From the NCBI GenBank assembly GCA_900541395.1, contig UQJT01000005.1, forward strand, positions 39,371-103,370: a DNA stretch of 64,000 nt, in the 5' to 3' direction. The notes under the pieces are model-generated. The model was not told the origin of the DNA. It made no database searches and worked only from the letters and a program-made list of their open reading frames with translations. The position numbers and the translations under genes were made by a program. Source of the stretch: an uncultured Desulfovibrio sp. Lineage in GTDB: Bacteria; Desulfobacterota; Desulfovibrionia; Desulfovibrionales; Desulfovibrionaceae. Positions 11,470 through 39,717 of this stretch are shown piece after piece. Position 1 is the stretch's first letter; the number at the start of each line of letters is the position of its first letter.

Positions 11470-14400
11470 TTACGAGTTGCCGTGGTTGAGAAGATGCTGC
11501 TGGACCAGAATGTCCATGTCCAATGCGTCGTTGCGCATTTCGACGTAGGCTATGCCCTCTGCGTCGGCCAGCGGAGAGCCGTCGGCAGCGGTAGCGGGGG
11601 CGCCGCCGTTTTGGGCGGTCCAGCCTTCGTCGAAACGGACGGAATTTCCGTCGGCCAGGATACCCAGGTGTGCCATGTCGGTCAGACTGGCCGGGGACGA
11701 GCCCTCCGCTCCGTTCAGGACAATGATTTCCGTGTCGAGCAGTGCGCTGTGCTCTCCGCTCAGCAGCGTATCCAGCGCTCCCCGATCCACGCCCACCAGG
11801 AAGTCGATGCCGTCGCCGCCGTCCATGATCGGGTTGTCCGGGCTGTAGAGCAGGATGTCGTTGCCCGCGCCGCCGTATAGGTGATTGGCGCCGGTGCCGC
11901 CGTCCAGATAGTCGTTGCCCGCGCCGCCGAACAGCATATCGTTTCCGTCGCCGCCGAACAGCATGTCGTCTCCGGCCCCGCCGGATAAGATGTCGTCGCC
12001 GCTGCCGCCGTGCAGGTTTTCCGCTCCCGCTCCGCCGAATACCGCCTGGGCGTCGGCGGCGTCCGCGCGGCCGAGGTTGCCGTCGGCATGGGACGGGGGG
12101 GCAAGGTCGACGACCACGCTGCCCGAGACGGGAGCATGGAGCCCGTCGGATACCGTATAAGCGAAGCGTTCGGTCAGGTCGCCGCCTGCGGCATGGGCTT
12201 CGGCCAGGTGAACCAGATCGGCGCGCGAAGTGTTGAGGGTATAGCTGTATTCGCCGGAGTCCGCGTCAAAGTGCAGGATGCCGAATGTCCCCTGTACGTC
12301 GCCCCGCTCGTTCATGTCCGCGAAGTCATAGGCCAGGAGATCGCCCTCATCCTGATCGAACAGCGGTATGTCATGCGTCGGCAGGCTGTTGTCGCGCGGA
12401 TCGGCGTTGTCGTTGTCGGACGAGGCGCGGACGTCCGCGTCCGGCGTCAGCTCCGTCAAAACGAGCGCCAGAATCGCCCGGCCGATCTGCGGGGCCCGGT
12501 TGACGCCGTCGACGGTCACCGTCAGTTCCTTCGACGTGGCGCTGTCGGTGCCGTCGCTGACCTTGAGTTGGAATTTCAGTTCCTCGCTGTCGCCTTCCTT
12601 TATGGCGGCCTGCGCGGCGGGGTCGGCCTCGAACGTGTATGTCCAGGCCTGTTTGCCGTCCGCATTCCGGGTCCGGGTGAAGGTAAAGACGCCCTTGCCG
12701 TCGATGGTCACGCTGTTGTCCGTCACCTCATAAGCCACGCCGTTCACCACTACGAACAGGGTGTGGCTGTCGGCGGCATCCACATCGTGGAAGTCGAGAG
12801 AGCCGGCATTATGGGCCGCTGTGGCCGTATCGATGACCGGCGCGTCATTGGCGCCTTTGATATGGACGAGCACGGTTTTTTCCGTGGCAGCGCCCTCCGC
12901 GTCCGTTACCGTGACGGTGAAGCTGTCGGTTCTCGTTTCACCTTCGGCCAGGACTTCGGCCCGCTCGTCCAGAGTGTACTTGTAGGTCCATAGGCCGTCT
13001 TCACTCTGGACCAGTTCCACCGTGCCGTAGCTGCCGTCGGTAGCGGTGACGGACGCCACCGTGCCGTCCACATCGCGGACAGAGAACGAGCCGGACAACG
13101 AATCCGCGCCGTCCGCGCCGTTTTCCACCACCGGGCTGTCGGCGGCGTTGGGGTCCAGATCAATGGACAGGTCCGGCGCGGTATTGGCGCCGGTAATGGA
13201 TACCTTGATGTTCAGGGTGGTTTGATTGTTCTGGCCGTCCGTCACCGTCAGGATCACCGAGGTTTCCGTGAGGCTGCCCGAGGTCAGGGCGCGCACGGCC
13301 TCGGACTCGTTATTCAGTTCGAAGGAGTACGTACCGTTCCTGTCGACCCTGAATGTACCGAAATCGTTGGTAATGCTGCCGTCGGCATTGAGCTTCGCAT
13401 GGTGCAGGGGGATGCCGTGGGCGTCCGTGGGCACCTGCAGGCCGTAGCTCAACGCGCCGTCAGCCTGATCCGCACGGTCCGCGTCGTAGGCTGTGGCCTG
13501 GCCGCTGACGGCGGTAGCGTCGCCTTCGCGCACGGTCAGCACCTTGTCCGCGGAGAGCACCGGCGCGTCGTCCTGACCGGAGACCTCCACCGTGATCGTC
13601 ACGGTGCTGGTCTTGCCGTGTTCGTCCGTGGCCGTGATAAAGAAAGTGTCCGTGCCCGGATGCTCGGCGTCCAGGCCCTGCACGGCCGGATCTGTGTTGT
13701 TCAGGGTGTAGACATACTTGCCGTTCATCAGTTGCAGGGTGCCGTACGTACCCTGCACCGCCGTGCCGCTCTGGCCGTCCTCGGCTTTTGCGGTAAAGGT
13801 CAGGTTGTCCATGCCCTCGTCGTCCTGGAACAGGTCACTCAACTCGCCGCTGTCCGTCAGGGCGCCGTCTTCGCTCACGGTCAGGGACGTTTTGGCTCTC
13901 TTTACTTCCGGACCGTAGTTGGTGCCGTCGATGGTGACGGTCACGTCCTGTGGCTCGCTGTAGTCCGTGCCGTCGTGAGCCACCACCTGGAAGGTTTCGC
14001 TCAAATGCGTACCGGCGGTGAGGTGTACGATGCCGCCGGGATAATTCTGTACCAAATCCTGCGGCAGCTTATTCGTATCCAGATGGAAGGTGTACGTGCC
14101 GTCGGGCTTGATTTCGATGCGGCCGTACTCGGTGGGCATGGACGTGACATGATTGCCGTCCTGGTCAACGAAGTAATACGTCACCGATGCCGTGCCGCCG
14201 GTGGGATTGCCGTCCGCGTCCAGCGCGTGGTCAATGTCCGTGGCCGTCACCCTGCCCGTGGCCGTCATGCCGTCGGTCAGGCCCTGGTCCCCCGTCTCGC
14301 CGATGGACGCGTCTGTTGCGCCGGTGATGACCGGGGCGTCGTTGGTACCGTAGATGTCGATAGTGATCTCGACGTTCGAGCCGTCGTCGTTGCGCACCAC

Positions 14401-17400
14401 CTGACCGTTGAGCATCAGGGTGAATTTCTCGCTGACCTTTTCGCCGTCGGCCAGACTCTGCACCGGGCCGGGCGTGCCGTTCTCGCCGTTATACAGGGTA
14501 TAAGTATACTCGCCCGTGACCGGATCGATGATCAGATAGCCGTACTGGCCGTTCACATGGATAGTGCCGTCGTCGTCGGCGGCGCTGCTCTGGATCTGCC
14601 GGCCGTCCGCGCCTTGGATGCCGAAGACGCGGTTCGGAGCGTCCTGTCCGTTATCCCACTTGGCCTCAAGCCGGCCTTTAAAGGTCGTCGTTTCCACATA
14701 ATCATCGGTGTCGCTTATATCCCTCCCGTCTTCCGACACGGAACCGTGCAGAGTGCTGTTTTCGGCGTCGAACACCAGGCTGAGGCCGGGATTTTCGCCG
14801 CCGCCCTGATCGGGATCAGCCGGGTCAATGGTGATCGTGATCATGTGGCTGTTATCGGACACCGCGCCGTGCGGGTCCACCACCACGACGTGGGCCCCGT
14901 CGGTCAGACTTTCGCCGTTCTGCAGGGCCTTCAAGGCTTCATCCAGAGAGGTGCTTTCATTATCCAGCGTATACCGGTAGTGGGTGATGACGGTACCGTC
15001 CTCCGTCGTTTCATAAGTCAGGGTGATGGTGCCGTAGGCGGTCTTGAGCTCGGTGACGGGCTGACCGTCCTTGCTCATCAGCATATAGCGCAACTGACCG
15101 GCGTCGTCGTCCACGTCGCTGATGGCCCCGCTGGGCAGCGTGCCGGTGAAGATCACGCTGGGATTTTCCAGGTCGGACGTGTCGTTGTCTTCGAAGACAT
15201 CCTGTTGCACCTTGCCGATGAAGGCCGCTTCATCATTTTCGTCCACGGTCAGAACCGGCTTGTCGTTGGTGCCCTTAATCTCGATGGTGATTTCCTTTTC
15301 GATTGTCTTGCCGCCTTCGATCACCGCCTGAACTTTGAAGGTTTCGTACTTGGATTCGTCATCGTTCATGGCCTGAATGAGAGCCGAGCCGTTTTTGCTC
15401 AGGGTATAGGTGTAGCTGCCGTCGGATTGGACCGTGAGCGTGCCCAGCGGCTTGCCGTCGGCGTCCTCCGCGAAAGCGATCTGTCCCGCATAGCGCCAGG
15501 TCACCTGGCCTTGATCCTCCATGTCCACGATATGGTCGAGGCCGAACCGACCTTGGATGGCCGGGTCCTGGTCGGCATGGTTGATATCCGCTCCGGCGTC
15601 TTCTCGGATAATCGTATCTCCGCTGACGGTAATGACCGGCTTGTCCGCCGAACCGACGACGTCGATGTGCAACGACCCTGAAGTAAAGGCGTTTTGCGGA
15701 TCGGTGACCCGGATGGTGAAGCTTTCCTGCTCCAGAATCTCCTGTTCGGACAACTTTTGTCCCTCATTCAGGGATTCCAGCCGTTCGGGATGCGTCAGGG
15801 TATATGTGTAGCTGCCGTCTTTACGCAGTTCCAGCACGCCGTACCGGCCTTCCACAACCTGGACCAGCTTGTCGTTATATTCGATGCTGAAGCTGAGGTC
15901 GCCGGAATTATGCCCGGCATCCGGATCGTCGGCGGTCAGTCGACCGGAGATAACCTTGTTGCCGTTTTCCTCCAGTCCGCCCACGACAATTTCGTCGCCG
16001 TCCATCCCGTCGACGGTGAAATAGGGGCGGTCGTTGCTGCCGTGGATATAGAGGTCCAGCTTCTGGCCGGTGATCATGTCCTCGGCGTGGCGGTTGTCCC
16101 GCACGGCCAGCCCGTAACCGGTCAACGTGAGCAACTCGCCCGCGTCGAGGGCGTTGACTTCGGCGTTGTCCGCCAGGGTAAAGGTATAGCGCCCCTGGGC
16201 GTCGATAGTCAGGGTGCCGTAAGTTTTGCCGTCCTGCATCACCTTGACGCTCCACGCGTGGAATGTGCCGTCAGGATCGGTGAAGCCGTAGACCAGATGG
16301 TTGACGCCGTTTTCGTCCACAGGATTGTCCACCGGCGTGACTTCAAACGTGCCGCTCGCCGTCTGGGACGCGCGGTTGTCCTCGTTGGTATTGAAGTTCA
16401 CCCCGTCTTCGGTGATCTGGACGACCCGAGCGTCGGTAGAATCAAGAAGGACGGCGTCGTCCCGACCGTGGACGGTGACGGTGACTTCCTTGATGTCGAA
16501 CGCGCCCTGCGAATCCTTGACCGCCACATGGAAGGTTTCGGTGCGGGTTTCGCCCGTGCGCAGCGCCTGCACGGCCTGGGCGGCGTTGTTCAGCGTATAG
16601 GTATACTCGCCCGTCTTCGGATCAATGCTCAGCGTGCCGTAGGTGCCGTCCATGCGGTCGCTCATGACGGGCGTCTTGCCTTCCGTCGAGCTTTGGGTCG
16701 TAATGCCGTAGGTGAAGCTTTCGCCCCTCGCGCCGCCCTCATCCGGGTCGGTCACGCCGACCGTGCCGGAGGCGGTCAACGTGTCGTCTTCCGTCACTTC
16801 CAGCTTCGGCTGGTGAAGGGTCAATTCGGGCCGGTCGTTGGTGCCCTTGATATTGGCCGTGGCCCAGGTTTCCAGGACGCCGCCCTTGCCGTCGGATACG
16901 GTGAAGTGGATGTAACGCTGAATGGTTTCCCCGGCATTCAGTTCCTGAACCGTCTGCGCGTTGTTATCCAGCGCGAAATAGTAGTCGCCCGTAGCGGGAT
17001 TGAGATGAAAGACGCCGATGTCGGTTTTGTAGGTCTGCCAACCCTGATCGTCTGTGCCGGTTTCCCCCTTCCAGGTGCCGGGATTGTGCTTGTCGGACGC
17101 ATCGGCGTTGAGTGAATAGCTCAGTTCGTCGCCTTCCCAATCCTTGATGACGTTCCGACCTGTATCGCTTTGTTCCTTGCCTGCCGTGGTCTCATTGCCG
17201 CCCGGCATTACCCCGGCTTCCACCACGTCCACTTGACTGCCGTGCACCAGATAGGGAGCGTCGTTGGAGCCGGTGATTTCCACCCGGACCTGTTCTTCGG
17301 AATACGCGCCGTGCTCGTCGGTGACCCGGATTGTATAGCCCTTGCCCCCCGTGGGGTCCACCTTCTGACCTTCGGCCAACTGTTGGGTTGCCGACGAAGC

Positions 17401-19893
17401 GTTGTTCAGTTCGTACCAGTAACGTCCGGTATCGGGATCAATATGCATGACGCCGTATTGATCGGGAACCGAGACGATTGGATTGCCGTTGTCGTCCGTA
17501 CCGAAGCTGTAGCTCAGCTTCGCGCCGTAATCGTCGTCGTCGCCCCGGGCCTGGCCGCTGTCGATATTGGTGTAGTCGTTGCCGGAATTCGCGCCCTGCT
17601 CCGTCACTTCCAGAAACCTGTCGTCGGGAGCGATGGTCAGGACGGGCGCGTCGTTGGCTCCCTCCACCCGGACGCCGAGCATATGACGGCCCTGTGCGCC
17701 GTACTGGTCGGTCACCGTGGAAGTAAAGTGAAACTCAAAGTAATTGTCCTGGCCCAAATGGTTGGCGGCTTCGGTCGCCAGAGCAAACGTATAGTGGCCC
17801 GTGACCGTATCCAGCGTCAGCGTGCCGTAATTGGTCGCTATCCTCTGGATGGCGTGTCCGGTTTCGGGATCAAGGCTTGTGCTGTCGCTGAGAATCTTCA
17901 GGGTTTCCGTGACCGGCCGACCGTCGGCATCGAGCAGAATATCGCCCGTCGCGTTCATGACGTTGACCGTGATGCCGGTTTCGTTGATGCCGCCCTGCTT
18001 GCCCGCGGCATCAATGCCGTAACGCAACTCGGCATTGTTGTCCCGGTCGTTGCCCGGCAAGTTGCCTTCCACCTCAATGCGGTGCCGATCCGGAAACACA
18101 AAGCCGTTATTCCCGCCGTCAGGCGTGGTGGGCGTGTTGCCGCCGGGGGCTACCCCGTCCTCACGCACATGCACCTTGCTGTAGGCGATGGTCGGGGCTT
18201 CGTTGGCGCCTTCGAGGCAAATGGTCAGGGTGCCGTCGCCGTTCAGTTTGCCGTCCGAGGCGTTGACGTTGAAGGTCAGATTCCAACGTTCGTCTTGGGC
18301 CATGCTGTCCACAAAGCCTCCGGCGGCGGTATCGAGTTCAAAACTGTAGCTGCCGTCGGGGTGCAGGGTAAAAGTGCCCGCCTCGGTGACGATGGTGGTC
18401 GCGCCCGCATCGGTATTGACGTCGAGCACTGTTAGCAATGTCGTTTCGTCGGTGTTGTCGGGATTGATCAGCGTTATCTTGCCGCCCGCAACGAGGCCGG
18501 AGGTATCCACGCCGTAGAGCAGAGCATCGCCTTCGGCGTCAAAGCCCTGCAACTGCCCTTCGAAGCCGAGCCGGTGTTCGCCGTTCGCGATGTGACCCTC
18601 GCCTCCGCTGTAATCCCGGGTAGGCGTATCGGCGTGGGCCATATCCTCGCCGAATACGCCCATATCCCGGACGTGCTCGGTCACGGCCTGCAGCACGGGC
18701 CTGTCGTTGGCGCCCCTGACGATGATGTCCAGCGGGCGTTCGGCATAAGCGCCGTATTCGTCCGTCACCACCACGGTCACCCGTTGGGCGACGTCGTCTC
18801 CGTCGCCGGAAAGCTTTTGGACGGCCTCGCTGTTCTTATCCAGGGTGTAGGTGTACTGACCGGTGTCCGGGTTGATGGTCAGGGTGCCGTACTCGTCCGT
18901 GATGCTGGTAATGGGGGCGCCGTTTTCGTCCGTACCGAAGCTGTACCGGAGCCGGTGCCCGGCGTCGGGATCGTCGCCCATAGCCTGTCCGGCGTCGGCG
19001 ATGACGCCTTCCGTGACGTTTGCGCCGTCGTCCGTGACGGCAAGCTGTCCCTTGCCCAGCTCCAGGCTGGGCATATCGTTGCTGCCCACTACGTTTATGG
19101 TGATCGTGGCGGTGGTCGTGCCGTTTCGACCGTCGCTGACCTGAACGATGAAATTCTCCTGCTGAATCTGGCCTTCGGCCAGGCCGTCGGCGGCTTCGTT
19201 GTTCAGGGTATAGGTATAAACGCCGTCGGGACCGATGGTGACGACGCCGTACCGTGCGGCAATGGTAGCGGCGGGGCCGTCGGGGCCGAGGAAAGCGTAA
19301 GTCAGCGCGTCGCCGTCGGCGTCGAAGGCGAGTACGCGGCCGCTCGCCGCGGGCACGCCTGTCTTGGCCTCGTTGCCGCCCACAAACACCCCGGCCTCCA
19401 CCACGTCGATCACGCCGCTGATGGCGATGACGGGCGCGAAATTGGGGGCGGCATCGCGGGGCAGTCCCCACAGCGTCTCGTCTTGTCGGGGAGTGCCGTT
19501 CCAGCCCAGATCCAGGCCGCCCAGACGATCGATGCCGCCCATAAGGTCGGCGGTGCTCCAGTCGTGATAGGCCGCGTTGCGGGCGGCGTCGGGCCCGGCG
19601 GCCGGACCGGCTGCGGGCATCAGGGTGGAGTCCAGGGCGGCAAAGAAGTCCGCGCCGGACAGTTCCATCCCGTCCACCTCGAAGTCGGGCATGGTTTCGC
19701 TGGTGTAGGCCGTGTAGAAGTTTTCCAGAACCAGGGAGGAGCCGTCGTCGAAGTTGAAGACGAGGTTGTCCTCCACGCGTTCCATGAAGACGTCGGAAGG
19801 TGAAAAATCGAAAACCAGGCGACTGCTTTCCGTAAGATCGGTCAGAACCGTTTGTTGCCCTGTTGCGGGCTTGGCAAGCGTTAAAGCGGCCAT
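11470..19893 (-). CDS. Giant VCBS-repeat / RTX surface adhesin (BapA/LapA-like)
   Basis: A 2,807-residue protein. ATG 19893 is chosen because AAGGAG lies 6 nt upstream and [14 protein letters not shown] begins a coherent domain; the open frame further up is ignored. Layout: an N-terminal module of about 110 residues, an Ala/Gly linker, then from about residue 150 to 2550 roughly 18 VCBS/cadherin-like repeats. Each repeat carries GTNDAPV-type junctions and YGTLTIDPxTGxYTYTL cores. From about 2615 to 2690 there are RTX calcium nonapeptides ([15 protein letters not shown]), and the last 120 residues are the likely type I secretion signal. There is no Sec signal. Such proteins are exported by a TolC-type system and mediate surface attachment or biofilm. 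No type I secretion genes are present in the window. The repeats invite recombination and assembly error. Confidence 0.9.
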
Positions 19894-20326
19894 GAAGACT
19901 CCTTTGGGGGCAAAACAAGACGTAACTACGGCGGCGACAGGATATTGCCGGCGTAAGTCGGAGGCGTCGAAAAGGGAAAGCCCCTTGAATAGGCGAGGAG
20001 AAAAGACGAAACCGGAGCGGACGGCTCGCGGTCCGGGAACGCCCCGAGCGGAGCGTTTCAGGAAGGCGGGGAAGGCGGATCCCGAGGCGATCCGCGCAAA
20101 CGACGGCCCTGCATAAGCAGGAGAGACACATGGAGTGAACGTCATGCCGCCGTTGCCGTTTTTTTATAAGAATCTCAGAATGGTTCGTCAAGATTGCCGG
20201 TGGAAGACGGGAGAAAAATTAAGAACGGCTCCCATGAAAATAAGCCCCGTCCAGGCGAAGGCCTCCGACGGCGGCTTGTCCGGCGGCGGCTTCCGGGCTA
20301 TTCTGATATTCCTCAAGGAGACGGAT
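19894..20326. other. Divergent intergenic region between the adhesin gene and dut
   Basis: 433 bp with no gene seen. It must contain the adhesin promoter on the minus strand and the dut promoter on the plus strand, but no convincing -35/-10 pair was picked out. ORFs extending the adhesin or dut upstream have no ribosome sites. Confidence 0.5.
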
Positions 20327-30589: not shown

Positions 30590-30983
30590 ATTGTTTCGGC
30601 TTGCCTTTTTGGACTAGTAGGAATAAATCTTAAAAACTAATGATTCATAAAAAATATCTGACAGGTAATAAGGTGACATCAGGGCATTTGCACTTTGGAA
30701 ATGCTCCACAGAGTCGAGCATAGCGAAATTTTTTTTCTGTTCTTTTCGTCCGTAAAGCGTTTCACGCCAAAGGCTGAAGGCATTGCGCCGACGGCCGATT
30801 CCTTTGCGGCGTTGCCGCGCGCCGGGCAGCCCCAAGGGCCATGCCTGTAGTCGCAGGGCCGCAGGCGCGGCCAGAAGAGCGGGCGACGGCTTCAAGCGTG
30901 AAACTTATAAGTGATAAAGCATGTTATGTTGAATGAGGGCGCTTTCAAAGTTGAACTGCTCCATAAGGTTGAATGAGGGACGT
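30590..30983. other. Intergenic region before the chemoreceptor gene
   Basis: No gene was seen. It holds dispersed repeat copy B (30682-30791), a short AT-rich patch near 30610-30660, and a direct repeat of TTGAATGAGGG (about 30930 and 30970) whose second copy supplies the ribosome site of the chemoreceptor gene. Confidence 0.5.
30682..30791 (+). repeat. Dispersed hairpin repeat, copy B (long form)
   Basis: The stem GCATTTGCACTTTGGAAATGC is followed by GAGTCGAGCATAGCGAAA and, after about 20 nt, TCCGTAAAGCGTTTCACGC with GGCTGAAGGC. These blocks match copy C at 5534-5640 in order and spacing. Confidence 0.6.
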
Positions 30984-32744
30984 ATGCACTGGAATAATTT
31001 TTCCTTGAGAAAAAAGCTGGTTTTCAGTTTCGGCGGCGGCTTGCTGCTTATGGTGGTATTCGCGCTCGTAGCGTTGGGGTTGATCCGGTCCATTACGGAC
31101 GAAGCGGATTTGGCCTTGGCCAAGCACGAGTTTGCGCTGACCCTGACCTTGCGTGAGGTGGATCATCTGAGGTGGGCCGAAGTGGTCGGCGATTTCGTGG
31201 CCAACCACGACCCCTCCCGCGTCGCGCTGAATGTGCAGACCGACGGCACCAAGTGCGTTTTCGGCGTCTGGTTTTATGGCGACGGCCGAGCCGAGCTGGA
31301 AAAGCTGGTGCCCGCGGCCCGAACTTACTTCGACGCTTTGGAAGCCCCTCATCTCGCGATGCACAAAAGCGCCCTCCACGTGGAAGAACTGGTGAAACAG
31401 GGCGACGAATCCGCCGCCCTGGCCGCCTATGAGCAGGAAACCCGGATCATGTCGGAGCAAGTGGCGGAGTTGCTGTCCCAAATCCGGAACGTGGTGGCCG
31501 CCGAAGCGAATCAGGACGCCGCTTCCTACCGCTCCCTGGCCGATGCGGCGCCGCAATGCATGGCGTTTTTGCTGTTGGTGGCTGTGGTCGGGTCGTTGGG
31601 GGCGGGCTACGTCATTTATCGATCCCTGGCCCGGCCGGTGCACGGTCTGGCGGCCAAGGCCAAGGCTGTGGCCGAGGGTAATTTGGATATCGAGTTGAAC
31701 CTCGAGCGCCGCGACGAAGTGGGACAACTGGCCCAGGCTCTGAACAGCATGGTGGCCAGTCTCAAGGCCAAGCTGCTCGAAAGCGAAACCAAGTCGGCCG
31801 AGGCCAAGGCCAACGCCGCGGCCGCCCAAAGCGCGTTGGCGGAAAGCGAGGCCAAGGAACGGCGTATATCGGTCATGCTGGATACCATGGCCGATATCTC
31901 GACGCGAGCGGACGACATCGCCCGCCGCCTGGCCGAATTGTCCGGTTCTCTGGCCGATCGGGTGGAGGATGTGGCGCGCGGCAGCGAGGAGCAGTATGAT
32001 CATGTGGCGTCCAACGCGGCCGCTGTGTCCGAATTGGCGTCCACGGCCGAATCCATCGCGGGCAACGCCCGGGATACCGCGGGCGGGGCGGAACGCACCA
32101 AGGAGCAGGCCGCCGGAGGCGTGGATGTGGTGCGGCGTTGCGGCGAGGCCATTACCCGGGTGGCCGAGCTGGCCGGGCAGCATTTTCAGGACATACAGGA
32201 ACTGGGCCGCATGGCCGACAGCATTACCGGCATCATGAGCGTTATTTCCGATATCGCGGACCAGACCAATTTGCTGGCGCTTAACGCGGCCATCGAGGCC
32301 GCCCGCGCGGGCGAGGCAGGCAAGGGCTTCGCCGTGGTGGCGGACGAAGTGCGCAAGTTGGCCGATAAAACCATGAAAGCCACCGAGGATGTGGGCCGTA
32401 AAATAAGCTCCATTCAAGAATCCATCCACACCAGCGTGATGTTTATGGAGCAGGCGAAGGACGCCACAATGTCGGCCAACGACCTGGCGTTGGAGTCCGG
32501 CGCCACATTGCGGCAAATTCTGGACCTGGCGGAGGCCAATACCGACAACGTGCACGGCATCGCCACCGCCGCCCAGCAGCAGACCGCCACGGTGGAGGAT
32601 ATGGCCCGCAGTATGCAGGCGGTGCGCGACATCGCCTCTCATACCAACGAGGGCATGCGCGAAGCGGCCGGGCTGGTTCGGTCGGTGGCGGAAATGGCTG
32701 AAGATTTGCAAGGTCTTATCGAGCAGCTCCGACATCAGGACTGA
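30984..32744 (+). CDS. Methyl-accepting chemotaxis protein with extracytoplasmic CZB-like domain
   Basis: 586 residues starting at ATG 30984 (GAGGGA upstream). TM1 is about residues 13-35 and TM2 about 192-212. Between them lies a helical sensor with the ligand pattern of the chemoreceptor zinc-binding (CZB) domain: H61 in DHLRW, C91 in [10 protein letters not shown], and H123/H127 in [13 protein letters not shown] domain follows TM2, with the signalling hairpin at [37 protein letters not shown]. No C-terminal CheR pentapeptide is seen. Zinc or hypochlorite/thiol redox are plausible stimuli, inferred from CZB proteins in general, most of which are cytoplasmic. Confidence 0.9.
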
Positions 32745-32900: not shown

Positions 32901-34301
32901 TTAGAGCAATCCCAGCGGAGGAGCCAAGAGCATCATGAGAGGCGTGAGGATGACGACCCAGGCCAGGGAAATGTAGACGCCTGGCTTGAACATGTCGTAC
33001 ATGCGGTAGTAACCGGCGGGATAGGTGACGAGAGGAACGGAATCGAGAGGGAGAAGGAAGGCGGCGGAGACGCTGAAGGTCATGGGCAGGGCGAGCAGAG
33101 CCGGGTTTACGCCCATGTTGCCGGCCAGAACCACGACCGCGGGCATGAGCACGGCGACCAGAGCGGTGATGACGGGAATGACCAGGTGCGCGACTATGGT
33201 GAACAGGGAGATGACGCCGATGAACACAGCCACATGCAGTCCGGTTATGCCCCCCAGACAGGCGTCGACCAGCCAGGTGGCGCCGCCGTTTTCAAAGAGG
33301 ATCATACCCAGAGCGTTGGCCGCCCCGATGAGCATGAGAATATCCCAGGCTATGTGGTTCTTGTCCTTTGTCCAATCGATGAGGTTTACGCGGGGCAGGG
33401 CGAAGGGGACGCTGCCCAGGAACGCGGCCACGGGCAAAGAAAGACCCGCGAGCGAGCACGAGCACCACAGAAGGAAGTTGACGGCGAGCAGGATGAGAAA
33501 GAATATTTCATCCCGGGTAAGGGGGCCAAGTTCTTTGAACTGCCTTTCCACTTCGTCCATACCGGCCAGGCGGCTCATTTCCGGATGAAAAACGCGGAGG
33601 AGGACGAAGCAGGTTACCGGGGTGATCAGCAGGACCATGGGAATGCCGAGCACCATCCATTTGAAAAAGGAAATGTCGACCTGAGCCATATCCTGCAGCA
33701 TGCCTATAGCCAGGATATTCACCGCGCTTCCGGCCGGTGTGCCGACCCCGCCTATGGTGCAGGCAAGGGGCAAACCCAGCATGAGAGCCTTGCCGAAGGC
33801 GCTGTCGCCCGGCTTGCAGCCGTTCTGATCCAGCACTTGCAGGCAAATGGGCAGCATCATGGCGCACACAGGAATATCCGCCAAAAAAGAGGAGAGAAGG
33901 GCGGATACCATCATGATGAAAAAGAGAAGGCGTTGCGGGCTGCCGTGTGACTTCAAACTGATCCAAAGCGTGATGCGCCTGGCCAAGCCTGATTTCTGGA
34001 AGGCGATGGCGATGCAGAACATGGCGAACACGAAGAAAATGGTCGGAGTCGCGAAATAGGACATGGCCTTGTCCAAGGGCACGGTACCCGTGACCACGGT
34101 CAGCAGGGTGAACAGAATGGAGCTCACGGCGATGGGCAGCAGATTGCTCACCCATGTGAGAACGGCGCACAACATCAGAGCTATGCTCTTCATGCCCTCC
34201 GGCGACAGATTTTCAGGCGCGGGAAGCGAAGTCAGAACAATGTAGAAGGCCGCGATGCCGAGGGCCGAAAGCAGTTTTCTGTTGGCGATGTCGTTGGTCA
34301 T
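32901..34301 (-). CDS. DASS/SLC13-family organic-anion:sodium symporter
   Basis: 466 residues with about 11-12 hydrophobic segments, the length and pattern of divalent anion:sodium symporters (CitT, SdcS). The sequence TWVSNLLPIAVSS and the sodium-site-like GVGTPAGSAVN are visible, and a second hairpin occurs late around PVITALVAVLMP. Substrates in the family are di- and tricarboxylates, sulfate and sulfonates; none can be assigned here. ATG 34301 is preceded by AAGGAGA. It lies 133 bp downstream of the flavoprotein gene, with a strong intercistronic hairpin in the gap, and is likely the importer for that enzyme's substrate. Confidence 0.88.
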   Translation of the reverse strand: MTNDIANRKLLSALGIAAFYIVLTSLPAPENLSPEGMKSIALMLCAVLTWVSNLLPIAVSSILFTLLTVVTGTVPLDKAMSYFATPTIFFVFAMFCIAIAFQKSGLARRITLWISLKSHGSPQRLLFFIMMVSALLSSFLADIPVCAMMLPICLQVLDQNGCKPGDSAFGKALMLGLPLACTIGGVGTPAGSAVNILAIGMLQDMAQVDISFFKWMVLGIPMVLLITPVTCFVLLRVFHPEMSRLAGMDEVERQFKELGPLTRDEIFFLILLAVNFLLWCSCSLAGLSLPVAAFLGSVPFALPRVNLIDWTKDKNHIAWDILMLIGAANALGMILFENGGATWLVDACLGGITGLHVAVFIGVISLFTIVAHLVIPVITALVAVLMPAVVVLAGNMGVNPALLALPMTFSVSAAFLLPLDSVPLVTYPAGYYRMYDMFKPGVYISLAWVVILTPLMMLLAPPLGLL

Positions 34302-34368
34302 GAATCTTCTCCTTGGGGAGAGGCTCCTTTGAGTTGGAGATGCCGGAGGCGGGGGCGGCGGACGCCTG

Positions 34369-34413
34369 CCCCGCGGCCGTGCCTTGCGCGCGGCGCAGGG
34401 CACGGCCGCGGGG
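34369..34413 (-). repeat. Intercistronic hairpin between flavoprotein and transporter genes
   Basis: Perfect 15-bp arms (CCCCGCGGCCGTGCC and its complement) with a 15-nt loop. There is no T-run. It sits in the 133-bp gap and probably sets relative mRNA stability or partial termination before the transporter gene. Confidence 0.6.
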
Positions 34414-34434
34414 CGCGTATGGGTATTTCGGGGT

Positions 34435-36120
34435 TCAGGCGTTCCAGCGGGGACGCCATTCCTTGATCACGCTGCCGTTCTGCTTGCGCACGGTCACGAA
34501 CTTGTCCGCCAGAAGGGGATTGGTGAAAGTGTAATCGGAACGACGGTGCAAATCGCGGCTTTCCTTGCGTTCCAGGGCGGCGTGCATGACGATTTCGCCA
34601 TTGTCCATGAGGTCGAGCGTTTCAATGGCGCGCATCAGACTGTGCGGGTCCTCCGCTTTTATCTGAGCTTCGGCGTCGCGGCGCAGATCGGCCAGATATT
34701 TGAGCCCGGCGTTCAACAGGGTGGCGGAGCGCAGGCGATGGGGGCCCGCCGCGGCATAAGAGTCCATGAGCTGCTGAAGGGCGAGGTTGGCTTCCTTCCA
34801 TGTCGCTCCCCGGGGCCGTTCCAGGAGGCTGCTGTAAAAGGCCGCCCTTTCCTCCACCCAGGGGGAGTGTTCGGCGTTCCGAATTCCGGCGTTCGCGGCG
34901 CTTCCGGCGGCGTTGCCGCCGGCGATCCACCCGTACACGGCCGATCCGGAAAGATCCGCCCGGAAGTTGCCCACCATGTCGCCCGCGGCATAGAGGCCGG
35001 GCACCGATGTCTGACCGTCGATGTCGATTTCCAGACCGCGTCCGATAATGAAGGGTTCATACTGCATGAACTCCACGGCATGTCGGGAAGGATCAAGACC
35101 CGATTCATCCATGTAATTGACCAGTGCGGTCAGTCCTTCGCTGTGCATGCCCTCGCGCATGAATCCCAGATCCTCGGGGCTGCTCTGAGTGCAGTCGATA
35201 TAGGCCGGGCCCGATCCGTTGAGGATGACGTCCGAATAGGCGCTGTTCCAGATATCGCAGGTGATGTCGCCCACGCTGCGGGTAGCGCGTTCCACGAAGG
35301 GACCGAGCAGCCTGCCGTCGGGATAACGATACACGCCGATCCAGGTGGATTTGCCGGCCCGGGAGAAAAATTTGGGACCGGCGTGGCGGTAGGGCATTTC
35401 CATGTTCACCATCTTTGCCCCGATGCGCCAACCTTGGGCTTGTCCGGCTCCCGCGCAGGCGGGACACCATGCGGTGTTGAAGGGCGCCCCGGGCGAGCCC
35501 GCCGCCGGATAAAGGCGGTTGGCGGACCCTGTGGTCAGGATGACTTTGCGGGCGCGGATCACTGTGAAGCGCGGTTCGGCATTGCTGAGATCCAGGGCGA
35601 GAGCTCCCGCGATTTCTCCGTCCAGCACGATGAGATCCAGCACCGGGTGGCGGTTGAGGATGCGGACCCCTTCTTTTTTGGCCTGGCGGGTCAGTACTGT
35701 TTTTTGATTGTGGCCGTCATATTTGAGCCAGATGCGCGGGCGTCCGGGAAAGGCGTGCCCCATGAATTCGTAGTCTTCCCCGAACGGTTTCATGTTGATG
35801 CCCCATTCGTGCCACAAGTCGGCCAAATGGAGGCTTTCCTCCAGGAATCGCAGCGAAAGCGTTTCGTCGTGGTAGGCTCCCACCTGGCTCTGCCGCAGTT
35901 CCTTCAGGATGACTCCGATATCTTTGCCGTGGGCTTTGGGATAGTAGCAGCAGAAGTGATCGTTGCCTGTGGCCCCGGAGCCTGAACGGCGGGTATCCGC
36001 CTTTTCCGCGACCAGAACGTCCACGCCGCCGCGAACCGCCGCGATGGCCGCGCACATGCCGCCAATGCCGCCGCCGACGATCAGCACATCCGTATTGATG
36101 GGAGTATTGAAGCTGAGCAT
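34435..36120 (-). CDS. AprA/fumarate-reductase-like FAD flavoprotein, substrate unknown
   Basis: 561 residues from ATG 36120 (GGAGG upstream). The dinucleotide fold LIVGGGIGGMCAA is at residues 13-25, then EKADTRRSGSGATGND, the FAD_binding_2 continuation at TTGSANRLYP, and the second FAD motif VPGLYAAGDMVGN with YGWIAGGNAAGSAA. The C-terminal helical domain resembles AprA and SdhA/FrdA. No signal peptide is present, so it is cytoplasmic. It is 17 bp downstream of an AprB-like two-cluster ferredoxin and would exchange electrons through it. True APS reductase is unlikely: the protein is shorter than AprA, and the pair is tied to an organic-anion transporter and a sigma-54 activator. It probably reduces or oxidises an imported acid. 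Confidence 0.85.
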   Translation of the reverse strand: MLSFNTPINTDVLIVGGGIGGMCAAIAAVRGGVDVLVAEKADTRRSGSGATGNDHFCCYYPKAHGKDIGVILKELRQSQVGAYHDETLSLRFLEESLHLADLWHEWGINMKPFGEDYEFMGHAFPGRPRIWLKYDGHNQKTVLTRQAKKEGVRILNRHPVLDLIVLDGEIAGALALDLSNAEPRFTVIRARKVILTTGSANRLYPAAGSPGAPFNTAWCPACAGAGQAQGWRIGAKMVNMEMPYRHAGPKFFSRAGKSTWIGVYRYPDGRLLGPFVERATRSVGDITCDIWNSAYSDVILNGSGPAYIDCTQSSPEDLGFMREGMHSEGLTALVNYMDESGLDPSRHAVEFMQYEPFIIGRGLEIDIDGQTSVPGLYAAGDMVGNFRADLSGSAVYGWIAGGNAAGSAANAGIRNAEHSPWVEERAAFYSSLLERPRGATWKEANLALQQLMDSYAAAGPHRLRSATLLNAGLKYLADLRRDAEAQIKAEDPHSLMRAIETLDLMDNGEIVMHAALERKESRDLHRRSDYTFTNPLLADKFVTVRKQNGSVIKEWRPRWNA

Positions 36121-36137
36121 GATGTCCTCCGGAAAGA

Positions 36138-36368
36138 CTAATTGTGCAGGGAAGATGCTTCGACGTGCAGAACCATGTAATTGAGCGGAAGACGCAGCTT
36201 TACCGCCTGAGAGGGACAGTCGGCCACGCACGCGTTGCAGTGCCAGCACTCTTCCGGATAAGCCACCTGCGGCGTCTGGTTTTTTTCATGCTTGAACAAC
36301 TGCATGGGGCAAACGGCGGCGCACATGCCGCAACGGGTGCAGCGATCCTCAAGGATATAAGGGGGCAT
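36138..36368 (-). CDS. AprB-like ferredoxin with two [4Fe-4S] clusters
   Basis: 76 residues with C10-x2-C13-x2-C16-x3-C20-P and C41-x2-C44-x2-C47-x3-C51-P, two full [4Fe-4S] motifs with an 8-10 residue insert between them as in AprB-type subunits. The tail (LPLNYMVLHVEASS) may embrace the flavoprotein as the AprB tail does. AAGGAG precedes ATG 36368. It is the first gene after a sigma-54-type promoter, so the electron carrier, flavoenzyme and transporter form one transcription unit. Confidence 0.92.
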   Translation of the reverse strand: MPPYILEDRCTRCGMCAAVCPMQLFKHEKNQTPQVAYPEECWHCNACVADCPSQAVKLRLPLNYMVLHVEASSLHN

Positions 36369-36413
36369 GGGATTCTCCTTGTTTAAGGGTTGAGGATTCC
36401 GCTCCCCTTCTTG

Positions 36414-36427
36414 GCAAGAAGCATGCC
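36414..36427 (-). promoter_or_regulatory. Sigma-54 (-24/-12) promoter of the ferredoxin-flavoprotein-transporter operon
   Basis: GGCATGCTTCTTGC on the minus strand fits GGCACG-N4-TTGC with one mismatch and the required GG-N10-GC spacing. It lies about 46 nt before the ferredoxin ATG. The divergent neighbour is a sigma-54 activator. Confidence 0.7.
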
Positions 36428-36452
36428 TTGCAATATATATATAAATATCAAT

Positions 36453-36468
36453 ATGTTACATGTAACAT
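36453..36468. promoter_or_regulatory. 16-bp perfect palindrome, likely activator site
   Basis: ATGTTACATGTAACAT is self-complementary and lies about 50 bp upstream of the sigma-54 promoter, between it and the divergent activator gene. This is where an enhancer or autoregulatory site is expected. Confidence 0.6.
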
Positions 36469-36475
36469 GTCGGGC

Positions 36476-36503
36476 TTGACTTTTAATTTTTGCCAGGTAG
36501 TTT
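36476..36503 (+). promoter_or_regulatory. Possible sigma-70 promoter of the activator gene
   Basis: TTGACT (36476-36481), a 16-nt spacer and TAGTTT (36498-36503). The -35 is good and the -10 is weak. Confidence 0.3.
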
Positions 36504-36539
36504 TGCAAAAAATAATGTCATTTTTTACAAGGAGCCGCC

Positions 36540-38156
36540 TTGAAAATCCCTCCCTCCCTTGAGGGGGCCGCCATGTCGCTGCTGGCCATGTACCGTATGG
36601 TCGGTCTGCGAAACGCCCTGCTCTACTTGCGCGACACGCTGCAAGATATGCTGCCCCTTGTCCGCATCAACGCCATTCTCTGTTCTCCTGACGGGGATAT
36701 GGTGATTTCCGTGGCGGACACCAGCCTGATAAATGTTTCCAACAAGTATAAGAGTGAAAAGCGTCACTCGCCCTTGGTGTGCCCGCATCAGCTGGATGAA
36801 AACCTCATTATCGGAGATCTTGAGCCATACAAGAAGATCACCATGCAAAAGCATCAGGGGATTGCGGATATGCCCCATTTGCAGCACCGCTCCCTGTTGC
36901 GCCTGCCCCTGTTTCATACCGGCGGAACCATCTTTCTCTTCAATTTCTGGTCGGATAATCGTAAGGCTTTCCATCCGGATGATGTGGAGCCTTTGCGTCG
37001 CTTGCTCGGCTCGTTGGTGGAGGAATTGAAAGCCAACCTTTCCTCCATCAAGCTGCGTGAACCTCAATATTCATCCGAGCCCGGACTCAGCGGCAGGGAA
37101 AAGCTGGCTCTGCGCCCCGCCCTGGCCCGTGTGCGCGGCTTGCTTGAGCAAGTGGCGGACACGGACAGCACAGTGCTGATCCTGGGAGAAACCGGCACCG
37201 GCAAGGAAGCCGTGGCGGATGCGATCCATGAATTGTCCGATCGGCGTGATGGGCCTTTCATCAAGGTGAATTGCGGCGCCATACCGGAAGGTCTATTGGA
37301 CAGCGAACTGTTCGGGCACGAAAAAGGGGCCTTCACCGGAGCTGTGAACTTCCGTCCCGGCTATTTTGAAATGGCGAACGGAGGCACAATTTTTCTGGAT
37401 GAAATAGGCGAAATGCCGCTTTCGGCGCAAACCCGCCTGCTGCGCGTGCTGGAAGGCGGCATGGCGCACAGGGTGGGGGGGACGGCTTTTCCGGTGAACG
37501 TCAGGGTTATCGCGGCGTCCCATGACAATCTGCCTCTTAAGGTGCGGGACGGGCGCTTTCGCAAAGACCTCTGGTTTCGTCTTTCCGTCTTTCCCGTACA
37601 GATACCTCCGTTGCGCTTTTGCATAGAGGACATTCCTCCCCTGGTCACCCGCTTCATCGAGGCAAAAAGTCGACGCATGAAACTGCCGTTTATCCCCAAA
37701 GTGAAGGACAGTGATTTGTATGCCCTGTACAGCTACGCCTGGCCGGGAAACGTGCGGGAGCTGGAACATGTGGTTGAACGCGCCTTGATCCTGTACAGAG
37801 GGAAGGAACATGAGGGCTGCCTCCGCTTTTCCACGGATTCCCCCCTTGATGGGGGCTGCGCTCTCGCGGAGACAAGGGGCGAAAACAGCGAATGGCCCTC
37901 TCTCCGGGAGCATGAGAATCGCTATATTCGGGACGTGCTTGAACACTGCGGCGGCAAGCTGACAGGCGAAGGAGGCGCCACGGAAATTTTAAAAATCCAG
38001 TACGCCACGCTGAAGGCCCGGATGCGGAAACTCGGCATTCCGGAAAAAGGGAGGGGAAAGCGCGAGAAAGAAACAGCGCAACAAGTTGATCAAAATTTCC
38101 TTTATGGTCTGACCCTCCCTTCAGAAAGTACGGAGTCGAGCGGCGGACCCGACTAA
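36540..38156 (+). CDS. Sigma-54-dependent transcriptional activator (GAF-like, AAA+, Fis-type HTH)
   Basis: 538 residues. The start is a TTG with a strong AAGGAG 5 nt before it; the ATG at 36573 is the alternative. Residues 20-165 look like a GAF-type sensor ([37 protein letters not shown]). The AAA+ domain has Walker A GETGTGKE (216-223), the sigma-54 contact loop GAFTGA (263-268), Walker [12 protein letters not shown] and the WPGNVREL arginine-sensor region. The C-terminus ([27 protein letters not shown]) is a Fis/FhlA-type HTH. It is divergent from the ferredoxin-flavoprotein-transporter operon and very likely activates it in response to a small molecule bound by the N-domain. Confidence 0.93.
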
Positions 38157-38287: not shown

Positions 38288-38314
38288 AAGCATTTCGCTC
38301 TTGAAATGTTCTAG
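38288..38314 (-). repeat. Dispersed hairpin repeat, copy D (stem only)
   Basis: On the minus strand GAACATTTC, AAGAG, GAAATGCTT follows immediately after, and overlaps, the TAG stop of the FadL-like gene. Short T/A runs after it could let it act as a weak terminator. Confidence 0.45.
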
Positions 38315-39552
38315 AACGTATAGCCCAGGCTGACGCCCACGTTGTGGGCGCGCACGTTGTGCGAACGTCCGGGCAGTACCGTCAGGTCGTTGGCGGCCTG
38401 GTCATAACTCAAATCGCGCACCTTGATGAAGGTATAGCCGATATCGAGCGTCCACTGATTCCAGAAGAAGCCCGCGCCCAGGGTAAAATACTGGCGGCCG
38501 TTGGAGGGCACCAGGTAGTCGGCGTTGGCGTGGTTCATGGGGCTGGTTTCATAAGTGTAGCCCGCGCGCAGGGCCAGCCAGTCCAGCGGCTTGTATTCCA
38601 CGCTGCCGCTGAAGGCCCAGGTGTCGCGCCAGTGTTTGGGCTGGATGAGCACCTGATTGGTCGGATTTTCGAGATAGATGTCCAGATGCCGGTAATTGCT
38701 CCAGGTATTGCAGACCACGTCGGCTTCAAAGCTCAGATTGGGGCGGGGTTTCCAGGCCACGCCCAGGCTGATGGTGTCGGGCAGACTCATGGTGCCGTGC
38801 AGATCGGAATTGAGCATAGGCGGCAGATGAGGATTGACAAGTCCGAGCTGCTTGTCCCAACGCGCCGTGCCGTGGATGTTGAGGGCCATGCGGCTGCGGT
38901 AGGCCAGGCCGGCGGACCACTGGTCGTTGAAGCGCACGTGCAGCGCGAGGTTGGCGCCCAGGGCTCCGCCCATGCCCTTGAGCTTGGAGCGGTTGTCGGC
39001 AGGTCCCAATTGATAATGCTGTTTCAGGGTCATGTCGCCGCCGGAAAATTCAATCCCCGCCGCGACGGAAACATGATCGTTGATTTTCCACGCGATGTTG
39101 GGGTTGACGGTAATGGTGTGCACCACCACGTCGGTCATGCCCGCGCTGCCCGGCCAGTTGCCAGGAAAGCCGTTGCCCAGGCCGAAACGGGGGAAAACGC
39201 CTACGCCCAGCCACAGGCTGTCCGTCATCTGGTGGGTGGCGTAAAAGTGCGGCAGAATCCAGTAGTCCTTTTTGGCGTCGGTGTCGGTGGTTTTACCATT
39301 CACGCGGGTTTCAATGCTGCCCGAGGGCAGCGACAGGGCGGAGCCGAACATCAGGGTGGTGCCCGGCAACTGGGTGATGCCGGCCGGATTGTAGGCCACG
39401 GCCGAGGCGTCGTCCGCGCGGGCGACCATGCCGCCGGCCAGCGCCATGCCGCGCGCGCTCCATTCGGTAATGCCGAAACCTTCGGCGCGGGCGCCGGAGG
39501 CGGTGACGGCCAGCACCAGGGCCGCGCCGATCAGGGAAGTGAGGTGTTTCAT
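38311..39552 (-). CDS. FadL/OmpP1/TodX-family outer membrane channel
   Basis: 413 residues with a Sec signal (MKHLTSLIGAALVLAVTASGARA, cut before EGFG). The family N-terminal plug sequence follows: GITEWSARGMALAGGMVARADDASAVAYNPAGIT. The rest alternates as amphipathic beta strands and ends in LGYTF, an outer-membrane C-terminal signature. FadL proteins pass long-chain fatty acids or hydrophobic organics through the outer membrane. AAGGAA lies before ATG 39552. It is convergent with the sigma-54 activator; no fatty-acid degradation gene is adjacent. Confidence 0.92.
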   Translation of the reverse strand: MKHLTSLIGAALVLAVTASGARAEGFGITEWSARGMALAGGMVARADDASAVAYNPAGITQLPGTTLMFGSALSLPSGSIETRVNGKTTDTDAKKDYWILPHFYATHQMTDSLWLGVGVFPRFGLGNGFPGNWPGSAGMTDVVVHTITVNPNIAWKINDHVSVAAGIEFSGGDMTLKQHYQLGPADNRSKLKGMGGALGANLALHVRFNDQWSAGLAYRSRMALNIHGTARWDKQLGLVNPHLPPMLNSDLHGTMSLPDTISLGVAWKPRPNLSFEADVVCNTWSNYRHLDIYLENPTNQVLIQPKHWRDTWAFSGSVEYKPLDWLALRAGYTYETSPMNHANADYLVPSNGRQYFTLGAGFFWNQWTLDIGYTFIKVRDLSYDQAANDLTVLPGRSHNVRAHNVGVSLGYTF

Positions 39553-39717
39553 GCCCGATTCCTTGCGGTGGGATGGGGGCTCAAAGCCCGGTTGGAAATA
39601 ATGTGAGTACACACTGCAAAAGGCCTCGTACGCCGCTAAGCGGCGTGAGGCCGAAATCTGATTATACCGTTTCGGAAAAAGAAGATAGTTTTTTTTACAG
39701 GTCGACGACCGGGGGGC

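Follow-up and report, generated by a model that had tools for sequence, protein, structure and literature searches.

A recurring ferredoxin, AprA-related flavoprotein and importer module facing a putative sigma-54-dependent activator in an uncultured Desulfovibrio

Four genes and a divergent intergenic region

The module described here lies in a 64,000-nucleotide stretch of contig UQJT01000005.1 from an uncultured Desulfovibrio sp.; this whole stretch is referred to below as the window. Three of its genes, encoding in order of transcription a small ferredoxin, a flavoprotein related to AprA and an anion importer of the DASS family, lie on the minus strand and face a divergent activator gene on the plus strand. 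This is the arrangement that an earlier note on the same DNA had described, and all four genes were found in place, as were the cysteine motifs, the flavin adenine dinucleotide (FAD) motif and the GAFTGA that the note had named. The genes and two elements of the divergent gap are as follows.

36138-36368, minus strand: ferredoxin subunit with two [4Fe-4S] clusters, 76 aa, two CxxCxxCxxxC motifs, resembling AprB and the beta subunit of 3'-phosphoadenosine 5'-phosphosulfate (PAPS) reductase, shorter than AprB
34435-36120, minus strand: AprA-like FAD flavoprotein, 561 aa, GGGIGG motif, FAD_binding_2 and Succ_DH_flav_C domains
32901-34301, minus strand: DASS-family anion symporter, 466 aa from the likely ATG; the listed open reading frame extends to a GTG at 34403
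36540-38156, plus strand: sigma-54-dependent activator (AAA+, GAFTGA), divergent, PF00158
36413-36428, minus strand: sigma-54-like −24/−12 element AGGCATGCTTCTTGCC facing the ferredoxin gene, score 20.2 of 24.9, shuffle p 0.03
36453-36468, strand not applicable: perfect 16-bp palindrome ATGTTACATGTAACAT in the divergent gap

The ferredoxin and flavoprotein genes are separated by 17 bases, and no signal peptide was seen by eye in the flavoprotein, a predicted cytoplasmic protein. Cut-offs were exceeded by Fer4 in the ferredoxin (44.4 bits), by FAD_binding_2 in the flavoprotein (95.8 bits) and by Sigma54_activat (PF00158) in the activator (213 bits, E 2e-63). The symporter scored 226.7 bits with TIGR00785 relative to a cut-off of 198.6, and matched PF00939 at E 8e-51, which confirmed its predicted membership of an organic-anion symporter family. 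With GAFTGA read in its translation, the activator has the domain content of a bacterial enhancer-binding protein. Its ends matched GAF_2 (E 0.0086) and HTH_8 (E 0.014) below the Pfam thresholds; thus, of the GAF-AAA-Fis architecture proposed for it, the AAA part with GAFTGA stood firmly, and the complete architecture is likely. In a PDB search, residues 4-60 of the ferredoxin matched 8a8o_C, the PAPS reductase beta subunit, at E 1.8e-10. This match ranked seventh, behind six proteins that included polyferredoxin, formylmethanofuran dehydrogenase, HdrA and Rnf domains; AprB (1jnr_B), which has 150 aa as against 76, matched at E 5.6e-5.

The unit recurs with different importers

To place the module among its relatives we used a single scan of a genome collection with two peptide patterns, which gave at least 79 loci (numbered with L; genomes are numbered with G) and is biased to members having those peptides. 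Loci L001 to L064, among the matches listed, carry family members with 35-83% identity to the window flavoprotein. Neighboring genes were recognized by BLAST against chosen representatives, and the importer counts cover the kinds so represented. Among the 70 family genes at these loci, 61 were accompanied within 900 bp, on the same strand, by a ferredoxin motif with two clusters; 48 lay no more than 3 kb from a DASS, TRAP (counting TAXI) or TTT gene, and for 23 an activator of the window type was no more than 6 kb away. When the count was restricted to genes flanked by 3.5 kb or more on each side (n = 41), 36 had the ferredoxin and 28 an importer.

The Mailhella metagenome-assembled genome G001, four of whose family genes also belong to the set of 70, encodes 13 members at E ≤1e-100; all 13 have an importer (DASS, TRAP or TTT) within 3 kb and 11 have the ferredoxin motif. 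Counting DASS and TRAP-M genes only, 11 of the 13 members had one within 3 kb, relative to a mean of 1.36 and a maximum of 8 in 20,000 random placements, and 9 of the 18 DASS genes lay within 3 kb of a family member, relative to 0.57 expected; this null model places genes independently, whereas the members cluster in islands. The recurrence of the unit across genomes exceeds chance.

Among the matches listed, the nearest flavoproteins come from Mailhella metagenome-assembled genomes, with 83% identity at L001, so that the DNA probably stems from a Desulfovibrionaceae of the Mailhella type. The window ferredoxin and flavoprotein are closest (79% and 83%) to an L001 pair beside a TRAP transporter, and the window activator is closest to the L001 activator (61%), which is likewise divergent. 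The window DASS protein is closest (56%) to a DASS protein of the same L001 island, where it adjoins another flavoprotein paralogue (60% identical to that of the window). The nearest module with an importer of the window DASS type, again among the matches listed, is L006 (flavoprotein 70%), which contains an activator, ferredoxin, flavoprotein, decarboxylase and DASS gene (51%). At L008 (70%) and at L106 in G001 (68%) the flavoprotein is accompanied by a TTT importer and two flavoenzymes of the Old Yellow Enzyme (OYE) type; L015 (69%) starts in the same way and has one OYE gene before its stretch ends. Judged by gene content, the importer of this module type is interchangeable (DASS, TRAP or TTT), and the window set is one variant of it. 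The co-occurrence that the earlier note had proposed to look for across genomes was thus found, as a recurring ferredoxin-flavoprotein-importer unit, and the fixed four-gene composition gave way to one in which the importer type varies. A search of plasmids with the flavoprotein yielded 51 records, all below 60% identity, two of which were PRK08275.

We then scored the divergent gaps against a −24/−12 consensus, with 300 shuffles of each gap, such that a p of 0 denotes less than 1/300. Sites with p ≤0.013 were present in 11 of 16 gaps of relatives, and the remaining five gave p values of 0.02-0.093; the window site (p 0.03) is weaker than those of most relatives. Perfect sites occur in L001 (TGGCACGATACTTGCT), L007 (TGGCACGATTCTTGCT) and L015 (TGGCACGGAACTTGCT). 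The sites of L001, L009 and L015 (first) fall within the longest open reading frame, and the true start of that frame must therefore be further downstream. The sites of the relatives support the proposed sigma-54 control, for which the element in the window is a candidate. The 16-bp palindrome may be a binding site for the activator.

The flavoprotein belongs to a clade of its own

The flavoprotein did not reach the cut-off of any NCBIfam model among the best 25 of 60 that matched. Membership of PRK08275 (NF006131), its best match, was rejected at 187.9 bits relative to a cut-off of 587; the reference proteins of L102 and L103 score 1143.7 and 1044.9. The PAPS reductase group PRK06854 (166.4 relative to 557), AprA (TIGR02061, only 83.8 relative to 641.75), fumarate reductase/succinate dehydrogenase proper (TIGR01812, 97.5 relative to 567.3; TIGR01176, 70 relative to 932.7) and TcuA (NF006130, PRK08274; 60.9 relative to 369) were rejected in the same way. 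The nearest solved structure by sequence was 8a8o, the PAPS reductase alpha subunit (25% identity; E 3.8e-38 with the sequence alone and 9e-54 as a profile). It was also the best fold match of the AlphaFold model (pLDDT 93.9), with a TM score of 0.85, followed by AprA (1jnr, 0.84) and FrdA (about 0.8).

In a tree of 109 rows, built by a quick method and with long branches flagged by the program, the 72 family rows formed a single clade (SH-aLRT 100) that excluded the six rows of AprA, the five of PRK06854, with which 8a8o grouped, the two of PRK08275, and FrdA and NadB. The tree does not include L005, L021, L038, L054, L057, L058, L062, L063, L017 and L018 or the copies of the last two (L121, L120), nor L001 and L055, which duplicate G001 rows; L102 was trimmed to its last 580 residues, and reference loci L081, L085 and L088 (AprA) and L101 (PRK06854) and SdhA (cut) were not used. 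L064 was left out of alignment A2. The earlier description of the protein as AprA/FrdA-like thus held at the level of superfamily domains and fold, in a clade that is separate, and in the phylogeny proposed as a check it clustered with none of the reference enzymes tried.

Residue comparisons were made by alignment alone, with 15 rows including the window (alignment A1). The reference positions were the catalytic Arg265 and His398 of AprA (A. fulgidus numbering), its Trp234, and in FrdA the catalytic Arg287 and the substrate-site histidines His232 and His355. The Arg265 column holds Gly248 in the window protein, the His398 column is a deletion that removes the His-bearing loop, and the columns of AprA Glu141 and Gln145 hold Met and Arg. 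In the Trp234 column the window protein has Trp, whereas 13 of the 14 other rows have Phe and the remaining one Asn; the register differs in the profile alignment. For FrdA, where the alignment is uncertain at all three columns, Arg287 corresponds to Cys288 (Cys, Ser or Ala across the 15 rows), His232 to His246 (invariant in 15 of 15) and His355 to an invariant Pro356, next to which 12 of 15 rows have His and the window has Phe357. Arg387 and Arg127 of the flavoprotein are invariant in all 15 rows. Scores, residues and tree together indicate that, by the tests made, the flavoprotein is neither an APS (adenosine 5'-phosphosulfate), PAPS nor fumarate reductase.

The known systems nearest to the module each share part of it. 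AprBA likewise combines an FAD alpha subunit of common fold with a two-cluster beta subunit; it differs from the window family in tree position, in the four residues lost there (Arg265, His398, Glu141 and Gln145), in the length of the ferredoxin and in the importer that adjoins most family loci. In an excerpt of PMC10322725, the PAPS reductase of M. thermolithotrophicus is described as an alpha2beta2 complex whose beta subunit resembles a ferredoxin. Its alpha subunit is the top solved match of the flavoprotein and its beta subunit the seventh match of the ferredoxin, whereas the low identity, the deleted loop and its grouping with PRK06854 and AprA set it apart. FrdA and NadB share the superfamily, the domain architecture and the His232-like histidine; the window gene differs from them in its other catalytic columns and in tree position, and no FrdB-type or membrane subunit adjoins it. 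At the PRK08275 loci L102 and L103 a flavoprotein gene is also followed by a small ferredoxin gene, but the regulators there are of the GntR type. For sulfite-reducing archaea, PMC7174415 mentions divergent AprA-like paralogues that lack the AprA residues. No characterized member of the present clade was recognized in the literature searched for it, and PMC4148979 and PMC10504309 had no bearing on the clade. By sequence, then, this is a clade of the AprA/FrdA superfamily, found in a unit with an interchangeable importer and a predicted sigma-54 switch.

The importer and a possible aliphatic substrate

We take two SNT signature motifs to be the hallmark of DASS carriers, which usually move dicarboxylates. 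When the window DASS protein was aligned to its nearest solved relative, of the VcINDY type (E 9e-33), both sites were altered, to ADI and VIT. By eye, the first site reads ADL in L001 and ADI in L006, and the second reads IAP in L001 and VNT, with N and T kept, in L006. The window protein is thus a family member by score with what appears to be an unusual site, and because of the altered motifs a standard C4-dicarboxylate site in it is doubtful.

These observations bear on the possibility that the module imports and reduces a C4-C6 unsaturated di- or tricarboxylate (fumarate, aconitate, itaconate or similar), the flavoprotein acting as a cytoplasmic analogue of fumarate reductase. The superfamily includes FrdA, both FrdA-type domains are present, the histidine at the His232 column is invariant, DASS carriers are typically dicarboxylate movers, and MmgE/PrpD and Amdase genes adjoin some relatives. 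The columns of Arg287 and His355, on the other hand, do not retain the FrdA residues, both VcINDY sites are altered in the window importer (N and T surviving at the second site of L006), and the TRAP binding proteins of sister modules resemble aromatic-acid binders, as described below. We consider this alternative unlikely, if worth keeping in mind.

Substrate clues from sister modules

The TRAP binding protein of L002 is 80% identical to that of L001, 83% to that of L003 and 91% to that of L004. By sequence it matched 4n6d first and then TarP entries (7nr2, E 2e-28; 7nsw, E 1e-24) with 24-26% identity, and the isethionate-binding 8t9t followed far lower (E 6.5e-13). A Foldseek search with its model (pLDDT 77.4) returned, in the top 20, marine proteins specific for aromatic acids, 4p56, 5im2 and TarP entries with coumarate, ferulate, caffeate or cinnamate. 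The sister modules therefore resemble the TarPQM aromatic-acid TRAP transporters in their DctP component, by sequence and by Foldseek; they differ from them in the low identity, and the window itself has a DASS carrier instead. The TTT binding protein of L015 matched 7ndr, BugD and a terephthalate-binding protein about equally.

At L006 the gene between the flavoprotein and the importer encodes a predicted gamma-resorcylate decarboxylase, which matched 2dvt over residues 1-320 of 320 (E 6.4e-109), with dihydroxybenzoate decarboxylases ranking next and no NCBIfam match at 1e-8. The arrangement is repeated in genome G184 (L139) with 98% identity. A decarboxylase gene at E ≤1e-60 was present in 5 of 247 genomes of the taxonomic family of G006; in the three genomes other than those of L006 and L139 there was no family flavoprotein in the stretch covered, one stretch being just 5.4 kb. 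The TTT variants carry flavoenzymes of the BaiCD/2,4-dienoyl-CoA reductase type, which score below equivalog cut-offs.

Taken together, these clues favor a module that takes up and reduces an aromatic or unsaturated acid, and they point weakly to aromatic acids over a fumarate, tricarballylate or urocanate logic. The earlier note had compared the module to TcuABC and urocanate reductase systems; its notion of an importer-linked flavoenzyme stood, and its choice of substrate logic is the part from which the clues lean, weakly, away.

Two observations limit the case for an aromatic substrate. In the VIA list for the L002 binding protein, 4n6d scored 30.4 and open TarP_Csal 29.0, and IseP (26.8) and a sialic-acid binder (26.4) tied with ligand-bound TarP (26.4-26.5); this tie means that the VIA list does not discriminate among ligands. 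The decarboxylase clue, moreover, is confined to one lineage (L006/L139), outside the window's own module. On account of the IseP tie we slightly lowered our confidence in reduction of an aromatic or unsaturated acid and in the resorcinol reductase considered below, and slightly raised that in the sulfur chemistry to which we now turn.

Hosts and the question of sulfur chemistry

Of the 25 genomes carrying the family, 8 had AprA over cut-off, 10 had Sat and 18 had DsrA. Neither AprA nor Sat was over cut-off in 15 of the 25, G001-G007 among them, and DsrA was over cut-off in 9 of these 15; most hosts are metagenome-assembled genomes, in which absence of genes is weak evidence. G013, which belongs to these 15, ends a contig with a short aprA-like match of the C-terminal part. 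G015 has a truncated but strong aprA-like match, and G010 a full-length one (363 bits) that groups with PRK06854 in the tree. Family copy number ranges from 1 to 13 across 26 genomes, and at least 26 of the 247 genomes of the taxonomic family of G006 have a member at E ≤1e-100 when at most five candidates are scored per genome. The clade also occurs, among the matches listed, in Hungatella, Coriobacteriaceae, Betaproteobacteria and Chloroflexi.

This distribution raises the possibility that the flavoprotein uses an AprA-like N5-sulfite chemistry to free sulfite from an imported organosulfonate, and so feeds DsrAB in organisms without Sat and AprA. The host counts agree with it, as do the Trp at the AprA Trp234 column of the window protein and the IseP tie. 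Mailhella is described in PMC13219744 as an organosulfonate respirer with DsrAB for which isethionate respiration is proposed; that paper attributes its sulfonate cleavage, however, to IslAB or HpsGH. The remaining AprA residues are not conserved, IseP falls far behind TarP by sequence, partners such as an aromatic decarboxylase and OYE-type enzymes are at odds with such a role, and the clade is present in the four groups just named, where Dsr was not searched. Overall we regard the sulfur chemistry as very improbable.

Neighboring genes and other AprA-like loci

Just past the activator, at 38311-39612 on the minus strand, lies a gene for an outer-membrane protein of the FadL/TodX type, which had no counterpart in relative loci at 1e-5 and was therefore left out of the module. 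A methyl-accepting chemotaxis protein with a zinc-binding CZB domain is encoded at 30933-32744 on the plus strand, convergent with the DASS gene. Farther away, an open reading frame of 2891 aa at 11470-20145 (minus strand) has bacterial cadherin-like and Ig-like repeats in part 15000-20145.

A second AprA-like flavoprotein clade (cluster FLAV20) is represented at L105, L117, L118 and L119 in G001 and at L030, L035 and L040; in G001 all four copies adjoin a GltD-like protein, and a DASS or TRAP gene is near three of them. In environmental metagenome-assembled genomes (L013, L046, L051, L145), Amidohydrolase_2 genes of the decarboxylase type are found no more than about 6 kb from AprA-like flavoproteins and from importers of the TAXI, TRAP or TTT kind. 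A gene run in Coriobacteriaceae (L056:1492-9866) contains two MmgE/PrpD and two Amdase/EutA-type genes, a DASS-like carrier, a flavoprotein and a ferredoxin. In Gracilibacter (L033, L060) the ferredoxin-flavoprotein pair is accompanied by an M24 peptidase, a pyridine nucleotide-disulfide oxidoreductase and an Fdh-alpha-like molybdopterin enzyme that scores below cut-off.

A model for the module

We propose that the module carries out import and ferredoxin-driven reduction of an aromatic or unsaturated acid, a reading to which we give a likelihood just short of even. The four genes would form a single inducible unit, in which the activator responds to the acid or its product and the DASS symporter brings the acid into the cell. 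The AprA-like FAD subunit and the two-cluster ferredoxin subunit would form a cytoplasmic two-subunit flavoenzyme; we infer this partnership because the alpha subunit of the alpha2beta2 enzyme 8a8o is the best sequence and fold match of the flavoprotein and its beta subunit matches the window ferredoxin. With electrons supplied via the ferredoxin, the flavoenzyme would reduce the acid, either as an electron sink or as a first catabolic step. The substrate would most probably be a carboxylic acid of plant origin, aromatic or otherwise unsaturated, and might belong to the hydroxybenzoates or hydroxycinnamates. Complex formation, the import step, reduction over oxidation and the substrate class are each inferred.

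The direction of the reaction could be the reverse: an imported saturated acid would be dehydrogenated and the ferredoxin would receive its electrons, in analogy to the dehydrogenation of tricarballylate by TcuA, which uses a different partner. TcuABC follows a logic of importer, flavoprotein and regulator, and TcuA is a weak relative by the score given above, far below its cut-off; the importer, regulator and electron partner of the window all differ from those of TcuABC. Superfamily flavoproteins operate in both directions, and many hosts (the 18 of 25 genomes with DsrA over cut-off) have an electron sink. To reduce a low-potential ferredoxin with electrons taken from a C-C desaturation is, however, energetically hard, and the BaiCD-type flavoenzymes of the TTT variants suit reduction better. 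We think oxidative catabolism quite unlikely.

A more specific form of the reductive model was also considered, in which the clade consists of ferredoxin-dependent reductases for aromatic acids or derived phenols, including a resorcinol reductase in the L006/L139 lineage. There gamma-resorcylate would be imported, decarboxylated to resorcinol and reductively dearomatized by the AprA-related flavoenzyme. On this reading, gut Mailhella lacking Sat and AprA would have expanded a fold like that of APS reductase into a set of tools for plant phenolics. In an excerpt of PMC10470551 resorcinol reductase is called ferredoxin-dependent and no gene is named, and no gene for such an enzyme was found in the literature searched. 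The L006 set of decarboxylase, ferredoxin, flavoprotein and importer would fit this activity; nevertheless, we hold the specific form to be decidedly improbable.

If reduction of an aromatic or unsaturated acid is indeed what the module performs, the clade would be an uncharacterized enzyme class with its own importers and switches, extending from gut Desulfovibrionaceae to metagenome-assembled genomes of Firmicutes and Chloroflexi. It would also offer gene candidates for ferredoxin-dependent ring reduction, which the excerpt of PMC10470551 treats as an activity alone, and would caution against labeling such genes APS or fumarate reductase. For anaerobes carrying the module, acids from the diet or from plants could then serve as electron acceptors or as a carbon source.

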